Shown: positions 18,876 through 28,453 of the stretch, one piece after another | How the letters are laid out: the number at the start of each line of letters is the position of its first letter | How positions within the stretch are numbered: position 1 is the first letter of the stretch | Origin: Clostridiales bacterium | GTDB taxonomy: Bacteria > Bacillota > Clostridia > Christensenellales > UBA3700 | Direction: 5' to 3' | Length of the DNA: 33,377 bases | Assembly (NCBI GenBank): GCA_015055975.1 | Contig: SVHF01000021.1 | Location: forward strand, 1-33,377 | Program-made: the position numbers and the translations under genes | Notes under the pieces: model-generated | Told to the model about the DNA's origin: nothing | Databases searched by the model: none | What the model saw: the letters and a program-made list of their open reading frames with translations, nothing else

Positions 18876-19703
18876 ATGTTGGACGGGAATAAAAAAGAAA
18901 TGGAAGAAACGAAAGAACAAGATAAAGTAGAAATATCTATGGAGGAGATAGAAGGACACACTATATCTCCAGTTGCTCAAGTTGCTCCAAAGGAGCAATC
19001 TCAATCAAGACTAGCTCGCGTTGGTAGAAGATTTAAATCAACTGCATTTATGAGGTTTATGGTTTGGCTTATAAAGCGTGTAATGCTAATTTTGTGGCCA
19101 ACAAAGATTTTCTTTAAAGAAAGATTCAACATTGAAGGAAGAGCTGTTGTTACTTGTAATCACTATGGATCTTTTGATACAAACCCAATTATCAACGCAT
19201 TTTATAAGAAAAAGCCAGTTTCAATTTTATTAAAGAAAGAACTTATGGAAAAGGACGACTTTAAAGCCCGTTTCTTGGACGAAATAGGTGGGATACCAGT
19301 AAATCGTCATCAAGCAGACATAACAGCCATTAAAAGGGCTCTAAAGGCTTTAAATTCAGATCAACAATTAATTATCTATCCTGAAGGTACAAGAAATCGT
19401 AAGGATACAAAGCAAATGGGTAAAATTGAAGAAGGAACAGCTATGTTTGCTATAAAAGCAAAAGCTCCAATTGTTCCACTTATGTATTATCGTTGTACAA
19501 AGTGGTATAGAAAGAACTATTTACTTGTAGGACATCCATTTACTTTGGAAGAGTTCTACGACGACAAATCTCCAGATGTAAAGAAAAAGGCAACTGCAAA
19601 GATTGTTGATGAATATGCAAAGCTTAGAAAAGAAATCGACGAGATTGTAGAAGTGTACAAAGGTTCTGAGAAAAAATACAAAAAGGCACATGGTATTAAA
19701 TAA
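18876..19703 (+). CDS. plsC: 1-acyl-sn-glycerol-3-phosphate acyltransferase
   Basis: PlsC transfers an acyl chain to lysophosphatidic acid at the membrane to form phosphatidic acid. Motif I is N-H96-Y-G-S-F-D101 (HX4D) and motif III is Y-P-E-G-T-R (169-174); a hydrophobic/amphipathic segment near 58-80 precedes the catalytic domain. An unusual charged N-terminal extension of about 45 residues may reflect a start that is too early: ATG 18876 lacks a ribosome site, while the in-frame ATG at 18900 has GGGA about 12 bases upstream. The C-terminus is lysine-rich. Its TAA overlaps the next ATG by one base (TAATG), so translation of ispH/rpsA is coupled to it. Confidence 0.93.
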   Translation: MLDGNKKEMEETKEQDKVEISMEEIEGHTISPVAQVAPKEQSQSRLARVGRRFKSTAFMRFMVWLIKRVMLILWPTKIFFKERFNIEGRAVVTCNHYGSFDTNPIINAFYKKKPVSILLKKELMEKDDFKARFLDEIGGIPVNRHQADITAIKRALKALNSDQQLIIYPEGTRNRKDTKQMGKIEEGTAMFAIKAKAPIVPLMYYRCTKWYRKNYLLVGHPFTLEEFYDDKSPDVKKKATAKIVDEYAKLRKEIDEIVEVYKGSEKKYKKAHGIK

Positions 19704-21901
19704 TGGAAGTAATTGTTGCTAAATCGGCGGGATTTTGTAAAGGTGTACAAGAGGCAATAAAGTTAGCAACTTCAATAGATAATGGTTGTGTTACGCTTGG
19801 AAAGCTTATTCACAACGAACAAGTTATTAAATCGTTAGAAGAGAAAAATATTAAAGCTATAAATACGCTTGATGACTATACATCAGGCGTTTTATTAATT
19901 AGATCTCATGGCGCAGGAAAAGACGTTTATGACGAGCTTGAAAAGCGCCATATTCCATACAAAGATGCAACATGTCCATTTGTTAAAAAAATACATGAAA
20001 TAGTTCTTAAGAACTATAACGATGGCAAAAAGATAATAATTATCGGGGATAAAAATCATCCAGAAGTTATTGGCACAAATGGGTGGTGTGGATACAGTGC
20101 AATCATTGTTTCAAACGAAGAAGACATCGCAAAAATTGATGAAAATGGAGACTACTGTGTAGTAGAACAGACCACTTTTGATGTAAAAGAGTACGAAAAA
20201 CTCTTAAATTTAATTAAAATTAAATGTAATTTAGTTGCGAATAATTCTACGATTTGTTATACTACCACGCGAAGACAAGAGGAAGCTGAGGATATTTCGA
20301 AGAAATGTGACTTAGTTTTAGTGCTTGGAAGTAGAACATCTTCAAACACGACAAAGTTATACAACATTTGTAAAGCCAATTGTCCAACGTATCTTATAGA
20401 AAACAAAGCGGATTTAGAATCCGTAGAGTATAAAAATTTAAAATTGGTCGGTATAGTCGCCGGCGCTTCAACTCCGCAAGAGTTGATTATGGAGGTAAAA
20501 AACACAATGAGCGAATCTCAAGAAACAAAAAACGTTGTAGTCGAGGACGTAAAAGAAGAAAAAACAACATCATCATTTGCTGATTTATACGAAGCATCTA
20601 AAAAGAAAGCTGATAAAGCAATGTCTATAAAGCTTGGCAAGGAATTTACAGTAACTGTTATTTCTGCTAACGAAAAGGGTATCAGCGTATCTTTTGGTGG
20701 AAAGAAAGATGGCTTCATTCCAGCTGAGGAAGCTGAAGTTGAAGGAACAGCATATGATCCAAATAACTACAAGGAAGGAGATACAATCGTTGCGAAAGTT
20801 ATAGATAACCCAGATGCTAAGAGCGGAATTTTCTGGCTTTCTAAGAAAGAAGAAGCTCAAAAGGCAATCGACGCTGAAAAGTACAAAGAAATCTTAATGC
20901 AACCAATGTTCAAGGCAACAATTACAGCTGCAGTTCCAAAGGGATTAACAGCAAACGTTGGCCCATACAAGATTTTCGTACCATCATCTCAAATCAAGAA
21001 AGGCTTCGTTGCTGATCCAGATCTACAAAAGTATGTTGGTAAGGAATTAAGACTAAGAGCTATCAAGTCTAAGAAGGAAGAAGATCAAGAATCTCCAGTT
21101 GAAATCAAATTAAACAAGACAATTTATGCTTCTCAAAAAGTTATTCTTGAAGAAGAAGCTGCAGCTGCAGATAAGGCACTTTGGGAATTCTTCGAAGTTG
21201 ACAAGGAAGTTCAAGGTAAAGTTGTTAGAATCAGAGACTTTGGTGCTTTCGTTAAAGTTAACGGTTTTGAATGCTTAGCACATAAATCAAATCTTTCTTA
21301 CAAGAAAAACGTTGCTCCAAGCGATGTATTAGAAGAAGGAAAGACATACACATTCAGAGTTTTGTCTGTAGATAAAGAAAAGAGACAAGTATCTTTAGGA
21401 TATAAGCAACTACAAAAGTCTTTATATGAAGAAGCTGCTGAAAAATATCCAGTAGGTTCAACAGTTACAGGACCAATCAAGAGCATTACAAATTATGGTG
21501 TATATGTACTTATCGAAGATGGCGTAGATGGATTAGTTCCAGTATCTGAAATCTCTAGAAAGTATGTAAAAACTCCAGCTGATGTTTGCAAGATTGACGA
21601 TGTAGTTACAGCTCAAGTTATCAAATTCGACGTAGAAAAGAACAAGATTACATTATCTATCAAAGCTTTACTTCCAGAAGAAGATCAAGTTTCTGATGAA
21701 GATGTAGAAGCAGCTAAGGAAAAGAGAGCAGCTAGAGTTTCTAAGAAGTTTGATAACGCTGAAGGCGCTAAGAAGAGAACTTCTAAGAAGAAGGAAGAAG
21801 TAGAAGAGCCACAATCATGGACAAATGACGATGGACTTGGTTCATTATCAATTGGCGAAATGATGAAGAGCTTAAAGGAATTAGATTTAACAAACGACTA
21901 A
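19703..21901 (+). CDS. ispH: Fusion of IspH (HMBPP reductase) and ribosomal protein S1
   Basis: Residues 1-~268 are IspH, the [4Fe-4S] enzyme that makes IPP and DMAPP in the MEP pathway. Conserved cysteines are in GFCKGV (C12), ATCPFV (~C95) and a third near ICYTTTRRQ; a TTK-rich end follows. Residues ~310-655 carry four S1 RNA-binding domains (about 312-385, 393-475, 493-565, 578-653), of which the third has the classical V-x-x-I-R-D-F-G-A-F-V and K-S-N-L-S motifs. The tail is lysine/glutamate-rich. This fusion is known in Clostridia. An internal GGAGGT (20491-20496) sits ten bases before in-frame ATG 20507 (Met269), exactly at the domain junction. Lysine codons switch from mostly AAA to mostly AAG after it, as expected if the S1 part is also made separately at high level. 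Confidence 0.95.
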   Translation: MEVIVAKSAGFCKGVQEAIKLATSIDNGCVTLGKLIHNEQVIKSLEEKNIKAINTLDDYTSGVLLIRSHGAGKDVYDELEKRHIPYKDATCPFVKKIHEIVLKNYNDGKKIIIIGDKNHPEVIGTNGWCGYSAIIVSNEEDIAKIDENGDYCVVEQTTFDVKEYEKLLNLIKIKCNLVANNSTICYTTTRRQEEAEDISKKCDLVLVLGSRTSSNTTKLYNICKANCPTYLIENKADLESVEYKNLKLVGIVAGASTPQELIMEVKNTMSESQETKNVVVEDVKEEKTTSSFADLYEASKKKADKAMSIKLGKEFTVTVISANEKGISVSFGGKKDGFIPAEEAEVEGTAYDPNNYKEGDTIVAKVIDNPDAKSGIFWLSKKEEAQKAIDAEKYKEILMQPMFKATITAAVPKGLTANVGPYKIFVPSSQIKKGFVADPDLQKYVGKELRLRAIKSKKEEDQESPVEIKLNKTIYASQKVILEEEAAAADKALWEFFEVDKEVQGKVVRIRDFGAFVKVNGFECLAHKSNLSYKKNVAPSDVLEEGKTYTFRVLSVDKEKRQVSLGYKQLQKSLYEEAAEKYPVGSTVTGPIKSITNYGVYVLIEDGVDGLVPVSEISRKYVKTPADVCKIDDVVTAQVIKFDVEKNKITLSIKALLPEEDQVSDEDVEAAKEKRAARVSKKFDNAEGAKKRTSKKKEEVEEPQSWTNDDGLGSLSIGEMMKSLKELDLTND
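20491..20509 (+). promoter_or_regulatory. Internal ribosome-binding site and start for a separate S1 protein
   Basis: GGAGGT at 20491-20496 is followed after ten bases by ATG 20507-20509 (residue Met269 of the fusion). It would start a 464-residue S1-only product. The location at the IspH/S1 boundary and the change in codon choice after it support real use; experimental proof is lacking. Confidence 0.6.
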
Positions 21902-23614: not shown

Positions 23615-23626
23615 AGAAAATAAAAT

Positions 23627-23660
23627 AGATATGAAGTAGGCGCAGCGATGCGCCTATTTT
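23627..23660 (+). terminator. Terminator within exact 34-nt repeat, copy 1
   Basis: TAGGCGCA and TGCGCCTA pair around a GCGA tetraloop, followed by TTTT. The whole 34-nt block is identical to 28420-28453, and the two copies bracket the surface-protein locus. Confidence 0.88.
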
Positions 23661-23818: not shown

Positions 23819-26800
23819 ATGACTAATAGCTTTGTTAGAAAAGTTACTATCGTTCTTGTTTTTATGGCTTTAATTGCCGGTATTATATTTGTTGGAGCAA
23901 TCGCATCTAAATCTCAAGAAGAAGTTTATGCTGCAGATGAATACACAATTCAGGTTACAGTAACTAGTTCATCATCGAGTATGTACGGATACGATATGAC
24001 ATATTACGATGTTACATTTGGAAGCAAAACGGGAAGAATTAATGGCTCAACTGGTAGTGTATCAATATCATCAACTACAAATGCAACTAGTCTTTCTTTT
24101 GCCACTCATGTAAGTATGTATGATTATGTTGGTAGTGGCTCAATAGGCGAAAATCAAACAATTACGCTTAAATATGATAATAACTTTTATGGAACAATTA
24201 CTTATTCTGCAGTAAGAGTAAAAAAAGACCCAACCGTTACAGCACCTACCGCAAAATCTAATTTAAAATACACAGGAAGCGCACAAGCGTTAGTTAATGC
24301 AGGTAGTACTGATGGTGGTACAATGCAATATAAACTAGATTCTGGTTCATATTCAACAAGCATTCCAACTGCTACAAATGCGGGCTCATATACTGTTTAT
24401 TACAAAGTAGTAGGAAACGATTTTTATAACGATTATGCAGAACATAGCGTTAGCGTTAGTATTGCAAAAGCAACAGCAAGCGTTACGGCACCTACTGCAA
24501 AATCTTTAACATATACAGGAAGTGCACAAGCTTTAGTTAACGCAGGTAGCACAAATTATGGTACTATACAATATAAACTAGGTTCTGGTTCATATTCAAC
24601 AACTATTCCAACTGCTACAAATGCGGGTTCATATACTGTGTATTATAAAGTTGATGGAACTAGCAATTATAACGGCTATTCAGAAAAGTCTGTTAATGTC
24701 ACAATTGCTAAAAAGAGCTTCACCCCAACAGTCAATATTACAGGTTGGACCTATGGAGATAGTGCAAATAGCCCTACAGTTAGTGGAAATACAAGTGGAG
24801 GGGCGGTTACATATACATATGCAACACAAGGATCTTCTTCATATTCTTCAACAGTTCCAACCAATGTTGGAAATTATACAGTGAAAGCAACAATTGCAGC
24901 TACAACAAACTATAATGAAGCAACAGCTACAAAGAATTTTAGTATATCTAAAAAGAGCTTTACTCCAACAGTCAATATTACGGGCTGGACATATGGCAAT
25001 AGCGCAAATAGCCCAACAGTTAGCGGAAATTCAAGTGGAGGATCGGTTACATATACATATGCAACACAAGGATCTTCTTCATATTCTTCAACAGTTCCAA
25101 CAAATGCAGGGAATTATACAGTAAAAGCTACAATTGCAGCTACATCAAATTACAATGAAGCAACTGCTACAAAGAATTTTTCTATTGCTAAAGCAAACGC
25201 TTCAATTAATCAAGCACCAACTGCAAAGTCTGATTTAAAATATAACGGAAGTGCTTTAGCCCTTATTAATGCAGGAAGCGCAAATGGCGGAACAATGCAA
25301 TATAAAGTGGGAAGCGGTTCATATTCTGCAACTATTCCAACTCAAGCAAATGTAGGAACATATTCTATTTATTACAAAGTAATTGGAGATTCAAATCATA
25401 ATGATTCAGCAGAAGCTGGCCCAATTGAAGTTACAATAGCAAAAGCAGACATAACAAATATTACATGTGTTCAAGATGGCCAAATTCAGTATAATGGCTC
25501 TGCACAGGCGCCACAATTAAATACATCAGCAGTTACGGTTAATAATCAACCTATAACATTTACTTATTCAAATTCAATTGATGGTCCATTTGCAGAATCA
25601 GTTACATTTACTGAAGTTAGCGAATATACTGCATATTATAAAGTTTCAGCTCCAAATCATAATGATGCAACAGGAAGCTTTAGTGTAGTTGTTATTAAAG
25701 GTGATCCTTCTATTACAGGATTAAGTGGAAAAGAAGGATTAAAGTATTTAGGTGTTAATCAAGACCTAATCACATCAGGCAGCACAAATGGTGGAACTTT
25801 ACAATATAAATTGGGAGATGGAGAATATTCAACAACTATTCCAAGTGCTAAAATCGTTGGTTCATATACTATCTACTACAAAGTAGTAGGAAATGATAGT
25901 TGGAATGATGTTCAAGAAGAATCACTTCAAGTATCAATTGCAAAAACAGATTTGGAAATAACTGCAAAAGATACTGTTATTACATATGGCGACGAGCCAA
26001 CAAATAGCGGAGTTAATTATTCTGGATTTGTTAATAACGAAACAAATGACGATTTAGGTGGTGCACTAGTTTTCGATTATAATTATGATCAATTTGGAAA
26101 TGTTGGTGTTTATACTATAAGCATTTTGGGATATACAAGTGATAACTATAACATTTCGTATGTATCTGGGAATTTAACAGTTAATCCTAAAGATATTGAA
26201 GTTACAATTGTTCCAAAAGAAAGTTCATATGGTGCAGAACCTGTTGAACTTGAATATTATATATCTTCTGGTGAAATAGTAAACGGAGATACAAACGTAT
26301 ATACCGTTACATGCTCAGTTACCGCTTCATCTGAAGTTGGAACATATGACATCGTAGGTACTGATACAAGTGAAAACTACAATGTAACATTTGTTGGTGG
26401 AGAAAATGCTTATTCAGTTACTCAACAACAACTAAGAATTATTGCAAATCCAAATACAATTATTTATGGAGATGCAGCAATTCATAATGGCGTAATATTT
26501 GAAGGATTCGTAAATGGGCAAACAGAAGCCGATTTAGGCGGTTCTATTGTGTATGCATATAGCTATAATCAATTTGATAATATAGGCAGCTATACAATTA
26601 CTCCAAGCGGTTATACGAGCGATGAATATCATATTGTGTTTGTCGATGGTGTATTAACAGTAAATCCAAAAGCGTTAGAAGTAACAATTACTCCAAAGAC
26701 AAGTGTATATAAAGAAGCAATTGAAGAATTAGAATATTCTTTAACATCTGGCGAAATAGTAAATGGAGATACAAATGTATATAGCGTAACATGTAATGTT

Positions 26801-27694
26801 ACAAGTGAATCAAATGCTGGAAGTTATAACATTTCAGGTGTTGTAAACAATAGTAATTATTCAGTTACGTTTATTAATGGTGAAAATGGATATGTAATTA
26901 CAAAGCGTCCAGTTGTATTGCAAGCTGATGATAAAGTTGGAAAATATGGCGAAGCTTTACCTCAATATACATTTACATTAAGTGAAGAAGTTGAGTCTTC
27001 TTCGTTAGAAGAAATCAAAAACAGAGTTGAATTTACAAGCTCAGCAAAAAATACAATTCCTGGAAAATATGTAATAAACGTAACATATAAGGATGGATTT
27101 AATAAAGATACTATATCTTTAAATTATAGCGTTGAGCTAAAAAATGCATTCGTAACTATTGAAGAAAATGAACAAAAATCAGAAGAAACAAAGAAAAAGG
27201 AAGAATCTGTTGATGTTCAATTTGAGGGCGTAGAAGATCCTTTTGATTATGATGTAAAAGTTTCTGCTGAAATTAGATCTGCAAATGCTTCTAGTGATGC
27301 GGGTATTAGTTATAAGACAATTGAAGAAAAATATGTAGATTCAAGAAGCGAAATCAATACAATCTACAGCGTAAAGTTGCTAAAGGTTGAAAATGTCGAT
27401 GGGACCGAGATATATGAAGTAATCGACGAAAATGACATTAAAGATGGTTTAATATTTGCTGTTAAAATGCCAGTTCCAGACGATTTAGAAGGTAGAAACT
27501 TCAGAATCTTACAAATAAGCAACGATAAAGATGAAGCAAAATATGTGGATTCTTCAAACGTTGATATAGAAGATGGCTTTGCTGTTGTTAAAACAGGAAG
27601 CTTAGATGATTTAGCGTTTGTTAGTTTAAAGCCAAATGAAGAAATGGATCATTTATCTTTCTGTATGGGATGTCCATTGTTAATTTTTGATTGA
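23819..27694 (+). CDS. Large secreted protein with Ig/MBG-like repeats, ending at an in-frame TGA before its membrane anchor
   Basis: The protein starts with a signal peptide (K-V-T then VLVFMALIAGIIFVGA, likely cut after VYA near residue 38); GAGAGGT precedes the ATG. After an N-terminal beta domain (~40-135) come modules of about 80 residues. Four are A-type (about 139-221, 222-299, 459-542, 631-714; L-K-Y-T-G-S-A-Q-A-L and Y-T-V-Y-Y-K-V). Two are nearly identical B-type (~299-378, 379-458). MBG-like pairs with I-x-Y-G-D and L-T-V-N-P-K follow (~715-1060). A charged region (~1100-1290) closes the ectodomain. The frame stops at TGA 27692-27694 but continues immediately into a hydrophobic anchor, so with one Trp codon this would be a 1530-residue anchored protein. 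It probably acts at the cell surface in adhesion or matrix binding; the ligand is unknown. Confidence 0.85.
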   Translation: MTNSFVRKVTIVLVFMALIAGIIFVGAIASKSQEEVYAADEYTIQVTVTSSSSSMYGYDMTYYDVTFGSKTGRINGSTGSVSISSTTNATSLSFATHVSMYDYVGSGSIGENQTITLKYDNNFYGTITYSAVRVKKDPTVTAPTAKSNLKYTGSAQALVNAGSTDGGTMQYKLDSGSYSTSIPTATNAGSYTVYYKVVGNDFYNDYAEHSVSVSIAKATASVTAPTAKSLTYTGSAQALVNAGSTNYGTIQYKLGSGSYSTTIPTATNAGSYTVYYKVDGTSNYNGYSEKSVNVTIAKKSFTPTVNITGWTYGDSANSPTVSGNTSGGAVTYTYATQGSSSYSSTVPTNVGNYTVKATIAATTNYNEATATKNFSISKKSFTPTVNITGWTYGNSANSPTVSGNSSGGSVTYTYATQGSSSYSSTVPTNAGNYTVKATIAATSNYNEATATKNFSIAKANASINQAPTAKSDLKYNGSALALINAGSANGGTMQYKVGSGSYSATIPTQANVGTYSIYYKVIGDSNHNDSAEAGPIEVTIAKADITNITCVQDGQIQYNGSAQAPQLNTSAVTVNNQPITFTYSNSIDGPFAESVTFTEVSEYTAYYKVSAPNHNDATGSFSVVVIKGDPSITGLSGKEGLKYLGVNQDLITSGSTNGGTLQYKLGDGEYSTTIPSAKIVGSYTIYYKVVGNDSWNDVQEESLQVSIAKTDLEITAKDTVITYGDEPTNSGVNYSGFVNNETNDDLGGALVFDYNYDQFGNVGVYTISILGYTSDNYNISYVSGNLTVNPKDIEVTIVPKESSYGAEPVELEYYISSGEIVNGDTNVYTVTCSVTASSEVGTYDIVGTDTSENYNVTFVGGENAYSVTQQQLRIIANPNTIIYGDAAIHNGVIFEGFVNGQTEADLGGSIVYAYSYNQFDNIGSYTITPSGYTSDEYHIVFVDGVLTVNPKALEVTITPKTSVYKEAIEELEYSLTSGEIVNGDTNVYSVTCNVTSESNAGSYNISGVVNNSNYSVTFINGENGYVITKRPVVLQADDKVGKYGEALPQYTFTLSEEVESSSLEEIKNRVEFTSSAKNTIPGKYVINVTYKDGFNKDTISLNYSVELKNAFVTIEENEQKSEETKKKEESVDVQFEGVEDPFDYDVKVSAEIRSANASSDAGISYKTIEEKYVDSRSEINTIYSVKLLKVENVDGTEIYEVIDENDIKDGLIFAVKMPVPDDLEGRNFRILQISNDKDEAKYVDSSNVDIEDGFAVVKTGSLDDLAFVSLKPNEEMDHLSFCMGCPLLIFD
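24711..25190 (+). repeat. Two tandem 240-bp repeats inside the surface-protein gene
   Basis: Units 24711-24950 and 24951-25190 are in exact 240-bp register and highly similar at DNA level; they encode the two 80-residue B-type modules. The low divergence implies recent duplication or gene conversion, so copy number may vary between strains. Confidence 0.85.
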
Positions 27695-27697
27695 ATA

Positions 27698-28411
27698 ATG
27701 CTTGCGTTATTAATCGTATATATTGCAACTAAGAAGAAAAAGGTTTTAGGCTTAATCGGAATGATTGCATCTGGAACTATGGTTGCATATGGAATCGTTG
27801 TATTATTTATGCATGTTTGCTATATAACAATAGCGGCGTTAGGAATAGATGTATTAATCTTCTTGGCTTTCTTGATTTTATTCCTAACAAAATATTTCAA
27901 AGATAAAAAGAAGGCACCAAAAGAAGAAATCAATAAAACAATAGAGGAAGTTTCAAAAGAGCAAGAAAAAGAGGCTGATAAGAACCACGAAAACGATAAT
28001 GATGAAAAGCAAGGAACAATATCTTTAAAAGAAAGTATGGATCTTGCAAAAACAACAGCTTCTTCTCATAAGTTTAACAAAGCATATATTTGTAATTATC
28101 TAAAAGGTAGAGAAGATATTGAACTATCTACAAGAGATAATTACACAAAGACAGGCTTGCCACTTGCGGATACTCACTATGTAATAAAAGACGGTAAGAG
28201 AATTTGCTTTGCATATGTTTACGAAACAGAAGGATCAATAATTCTGCTTGCAAAAATGGATTCGGATTATGCAAATAAGTTGAAACAAAAGCATGAAAAT
28301 ATCAACTTAAGTGCATTCCCAAAACAAAAGAATACTTGGTATAGCTTAATTATCGACGATACATATACAAAAGAAGAATTTGAACAAATTCTCGATGATA
28401 TTACAAAATAA
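27698..28411 (+). CDS. Membrane anchor plus YjbR-like cytoplasmic domain, continuation of the surface protein after TGA
   Basis: This frame lies in register with the surface-protein gene, one codon after its TGA. There is no ribosome-binding site before ATG 27698. The first residues continue a membrane helix begun upstream (CPLLIFD|..MLALLIVYIATKKKK), then two more helices follow (about 18-40 and 45-65) and a highly charged linker. Residues ~115-235 resemble MmcQ/YjbR proteins: D-T-H-Y-V-I-K-D-G-K-R-I-C-F-A-Y-V, I-I-L-L-A-K-M, and a late W-Y-S-L-I-I-D-D-T-Y-T-K-E-E. I think this is the C-terminal part of the same protein, split by a nonsense mutation, a sequencing error or regulated read-through. 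Independent translation is possible but poorly supported. The 34-nt terminator follows. Confidence 0.65.
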   Translation: MLALLIVYIATKKKKVLGLIGMIASGTMVAYGIVVLFMHVCYITIAALGIDVLIFLAFLILFLTKYFKDKKKAPKEEINKTIEEVSKEQEKEADKNHENDNDEKQGTISLKESMDLAKTTASSHKFNKAYICNYLKGREDIELSTRDNYTKTGLPLADTHYVIKDGKRICFAYVYETEGSIILLAKMDSDYANKLKQKHENINLSAFPKQKNTWYSLIIDDTYTKEEFEQILDDITK

Positions 28412-28419
28412 GAATAACA

Positions 28420-28453
28420 AGATATGAAGTAGGCGCAGCGATGCGCCTATTTT
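28420..28453 (+). terminator. Terminator within exact 34-nt repeat, copy 2
   Basis: Identical to 23627-23660, with the same 8-bp stem, GCGA tetraloop and TTTT tail. A second small hairpin (CCAAGT 28458-28463 with ACTTGG 28467-28472) follows at once. Confidence 0.88.

Follow-up and report, generated by a model that had tools for sequence, protein, structure and literature searches.

The window analyzed is a 33,377-nucleotide stretch, contig C15 of the 1.59-Mb draft genome of a Clostridiales bacterium (42 contigs, 98% complete), and all coordinates given here are on its forward strand. An open reading frame at 23819..27694 encodes a protein of 1291 amino acids, starts with ATG, preceded a few bases upstream by the ribosome site GAGAGG, and ends in TGA at 27692..27694. 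The protein has a hydrophobic, signal-peptide-like N-terminus, an ectodomain with Pfam MBG_2 and MBG_3 repeats, a juxtamembrane domain, and the first half of a membrane helix. Directly after the TGA the same frame stays open for 238 codons until the TAA ending at 28411 (27695..28411), encoding the second half of the helix, more helices, a linker and a C-terminal domain, and read-through would give a product of 1530 residues. This is exactly the arrangement described in an earlier, sequence-only reading of the DNA. The continuation is not a chance extension, because 40 codons is the most that stays open in frame behind any of the window's other main ORFs and because the sister genome G002 encodes both halves as one frame. 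Elsewhere in the window, 19703..21901 encodes a fusion of IspH with ribosomal protein S1 domains (NCBIfam PRK00087 type), an arrangement that has its own NCBIfam model.

By hydropathy, the read-through frame contains about three membrane helices, with the TGA inside the first. The stop corresponds to residue 1292 and splits the hydrophobic segment of residues 1279-1306 (27653..27736), while more hydrophobic segments, probably helices 2 and 3, fall within residues 1309-1361 (27743..27901), which bears out the earlier proposal that the TGA interrupts a membrane helix. The C-terminus that ends at the TGA is not membrane-spanning by the same measure (0.83 versus a threshold of 1.6). Searches of Pfam and PDB sequences with the juxtamembrane and anchor domain gave no convincing known fold. 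The C-terminal domain (28022..28408) is presumably cytoplasmic and was described as YjbR-like, an assignment that rests on weak sequence and fold matches. An AlphaFold model of the domain was of moderate confidence (mean pLDDT of 72), and a Foldseek search with it found a DUF419 structure and similar ones with a probability of 0.98-0.99 but E-values no better than 7e-3. Among four aligned copies of the domain, one, from a paralogue, matched Pfam YjbR (PF04237; E = 1.1e-5), whereas the window copy did not. In this genome, surface proteins anchored in the membrane carry YjbR-like domains as tails that presumably lie in the cytoplasm, an unusual fusion, and the domains stand in tandem in two paralogues (G000:C1, 48873-49672; G000:C37, 18501-19308).

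The congeneric genome G002 (JAEEWC010000153.1, Clostridia bacterium Tb.RUG.47) carries an orthologue as one uninterrupted frame. Its contig begins inside the repeats, leaving the last 892 codons comparable, and DNA identity to the window is 94.9% over 25733-28442, about 2.7 kb. The codon corresponding to the TGA at 27692..27694 is GGA (Gly) in G002, so that one base differs, G in the sister and T in the window at position 27692. A tryptophan codon (TGG) had been proposed for this position, and as the original codon it is rejected in view of the glycine codon of the sister. Comparison of homologous loci therefore upheld one half of the expectation, that homologues are uninterrupted, and contradicted the other, that the codon would be TGG. 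The uninterrupted homologues agree with the proposal of a single 1530-residue anchored protein that has been cut between ectodomain and anchor, and no homologue split at the position of the TGA was found in the congeneric genomes or in a wider sample of the order. The helix position occupied by the TGA codon is not conserved among paralogues. When public genomes were scanned for a second assembly of the same species, the sister record G002 alone was returned.

Both parts of the gene have evolved under constraint since divergence from G002. The dN/dS ratio was 0.237 (bootstrap range 0.15-0.35) before the stop and 0.12 (0.06-0.22) after it, and for the C-terminal domain it was only 0.045, with three amino acid changes in 131 codons. 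The low ratio after the stop implies that purifying selection acted on the tail during most of the period that separates the two lineages. With one close relative available for comparison, this ratio reports mostly on the time before the mutation, and it agrees equally with a stop of very recent origin, with an error in the assembly and with a tail that is still used. In-frame stops in genes with dN/dS below 1 were common in a survey of bacterial genes, which concluded that such stops tend to last about as long as population polymorphisms (PMC7918605).

The surface-protein gene is bounded by two direct repeats of 41-42 bp that are 95% identical and share the core GTAGGCGCAGCGATGCGCCTA, upstream at 23619..23660 and downstream at 28413..28453. 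The repeats comprise a hairpin followed by T-rich sequence, the upstream copy being annotated with the hairpin, and the exact 21-bp core has no other occurrence in this genome. In the relative G004 the site is empty: its upstream genes match the window up to 23661 (86%), the transporter gene is followed by just one core copy, and beyond that copy the match to the window resumes from 28427 (78%), with no surface gene between. In G002, similarity to the window ends just after the end of the surface gene, and other genes follow. Judging from these comparisons, the surface-protein gene appears to be an accessory insertion at the terminator of the transporter gene, a status that agrees with weak or variable selection on it.

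Family members were sought with a profile that spans the juxtamembrane domain and the three helices of the anchor. This C-terminal anchor module, with its HGFCIGW motif, is common to large surface proteins of the genus and has a patchy distribution in the rest of the order (14 of 396 genomes, among them G255, G183 and G277); it has no match in Pfam. Five full-length members are present in this genome, two of them with an in-frame stop, while none of the seven full-length members in three congeneric genomes is interrupted; the wider sample of the order added one partial match that contains a TAA. The second interrupted gene of this genome is a paralogue on contig C18 (L031:3536-5722, equivalent to G000:C18, 13535-15721), with an in-frame TAA at L031:5111-5113 in the context KLI*TEGG, where its tandem neighbor has AAA. 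Here too the stop lies between ectodomain and membrane anchor, and the tail is constrained (dN/dS of 0.138 versus the tandem neighbor). These were the only two interrupted genes recognized in a 761-kb sample, about 48% of the genome, which deliberately includes members of the surface-protein family, and in each of them the cut separates ectodomain from anchor. Long in-frame continuations elsewhere in the sample were judged by eye from their translations, not by family search, and apart from the C18 paralogue they look like two different neighboring genes. By our own estimate, from a small sample chosen partly for this family, the family makes up about 5% of the sampled coding length and the probability of coincidence would be about 0.003, which is no more than suggestive. 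Neutral reasons for two cut members remain, namely that the genes are long, that their function is accessory and that late stops are less strongly selected against. That a paralogue shows the pattern as well suggests that anchor loss is tolerated or favored in this family.

We consider it probable that the window gene is a recent nonsense allele, whose product would be a secreted, anchor-less ectodomain with at most basal leakage through the UGA. The ancestral protein would have comprised 1530 residues, consisting of the signal peptide, the MBG-repeat ectodomain, the juxtamembrane domain, about three helices and a cytoplasmic YjbR-like domain. The TGA would then have arisen by one G-to-T change in a codon for glycine within the first membrane helix. 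The sister and other homologues are uninterrupted, and the change presumably ran from sense codon to stop. The main product would be the 1291-residue ectodomain, which retains the signal-peptide-like N-terminus, is predicted to be exported through it, and would be released since only half a helix remains; the helices and the YjbR-like domain would either not be made or arise from the low level of leakage that is ordinary at UGA. Significant read-through is not expected, and the T at 27692 is taken to be real and fixed on the strength of one draft assembly. If the base is real, the gene is a clear case in which one nonsense mutation has made a surface protein of an uncultured gut-type bacterium into a secreted one.

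It is unlikely, though it deserves the most weight among the alternatives, that the T arose in error during sequencing or assembly, or represents a minority variant in the draft consensus, in a population that mostly has the sense codon and the anchored protein. In favor of this are a tail under strong purifying selection, a difference of one base from an intact sister and a draft of 42 contigs. The change is, however, a substitution rather than an indel or homopolymer error, and the site lies in single-copy sequence. Neither does the assembly appear to be generally error-prone, given that a second family member also has a stop and that no other interrupted gene was recognized in the 761 kb.

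We regard functional partial read-through, in which the UGA would be decoded in a fraction of passages, as tryptophan by a near-cognate tRNA, to give both released and anchored forms, as improbable. The constrained tail is compatible with it, and it has been proposed that bacteria often read through in-frame stops (PMC7918605). The sole permissive feature at the site is the A in the +4 position after the TGA: a following A favors misreading of UGA by tRNA-Trp in E. coli (PMC5289835), and some basal leakage is therefore possible, but A also follows the TGA at 19 of the 50 ordinary TGA stops in the sample. No stimulatory 3′ structure was detected past the TGA (fold z = +1.25), and the stop site matched no Rfam family. 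The genome yielded no suppressor tRNA, a UCA anticodon being absent from the 39 tRNA genes typed. A superwobble tRNA-Trp with a 4-bp anticodon stem, a route to UGA reading reported elsewhere (PMC13092985), was rejected, since the tRNA-Trp (CCA) of this genome has a complete 5-bp stem. Nor is the stop conserved across species ahead of an intact downstream frame, the sister having a glycine codon in its place. Partial read-through had been raised for this site, but in a regulated form it finds no support in the tRNA set, the downstream sequence or the sister; selenocysteine or recoding driven by RNA structure was rejected in view of the missing structure and Rfam family and of the glycine in the relative.

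There is an equally slim chance that stops between ectodomain and anchor are favored by selection in this family. A single nonsense codon, TGA in the window gene and TAA in the C18 paralogue, would then have converted each of two among the five full-length members, independently, from an anchored to a released form. Anchor loss of this kind would act as a switch, slow and reversible, and some read-through might keep part of the protein bound to the membrane.

Still less probable is a split gene, in which translation would restart at the ATG at 27698 and make the helices and C-terminal domain as a separate protein. This ATG lies 3 nt past the TGA in the same frame, and the tail is constrained. 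It has no Shine-Dalgarno-like sequence ahead of it, as had been claimed for the next ATG after the stop, whereas the start at 23819 has its GAGAGG; moreover, only half a helix would stand at the start of the separate protein, and no homologue was found to be split there.

The TGA codon is an ordinary stop in this genome, and the least used: 578 ORFs of at least 100 codons in the 761-kb sample end in TAA (406), TAG (122) or TGA (50, or 8.7%), and TGA terminates two of the 24 main ORFs in the window, so that to call it very rare as a stop, as had been done, overstates the case. A change of genetic code (code 4 or 25) or a suppressor, by which this organism would read UGA as an amino acid, could be suggested by that low usage but is almost certainly wrong, given that RF2 is encoded, that the typed tRNAs hold no such reader short of one in the missing 2% of the genome, that TGA ends 50 ORFs as an ordinary stop, and that no other sampled gene was recognized as TGA-interrupted.

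Taken alone, the event we favor, loss of an anchor through a recent nonsense mutation, would be an ordinary one, its kind already well known from Listeria inlA. Premature-stop (PMSC) alleles of L. monocytogenes inlA give a truncated, secreted InlA, as reported by Nightingale 2005 according to the papers that cite it (PMC10299213 and PMC5131979). In those alleles, as they are described there, a surface protein with repeats keeps its signal peptide and ectodomain but loses its C-terminal anchor to a nonsense mutation; in the window gene, likewise, the stop differs by a single base from an uninterrupted close relative (GGA versus TGA), and hydropathy indicates that signal peptide and ectodomain are kept and the anchor is lost. 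The anchors differ, InlA having an LPXTG motif and sortase and the window protein three membrane helices plus a cytoplasmic domain, and the inlA alleles are documented in many isolates, whereas the window allele is known from one assembly. The scl1.3 allele found in group A Streptococcus of M3 type is likewise cut ahead of the part that anchors the protein: a TAA upstream of the wall-membrane region yields a truncated form that cannot be anchored (PMC3268755), although that stop lies within a collagen-like repeat and the protein, which has a wall anchor, is unrelated to the one described here. The single nonsense codon in a gene with dN/dS well below 1 also resembles the cases of Belinky et al. 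2021 (PMC7918605), who discussed in-frame stops in constrained genes as young polymorphism or read-through but retained stops shared by at least two species, whereas here the sister lacks the stop. A literature search on MBG-domain surface proteins gave nothing useful; the window protein resembles that group in its MBG_2 and MBG_3 repeats and departs from it in its HGFCIGW-type anchor, outside Pfam, and in a tail domain recognizable as YjbR in one paralogue only.
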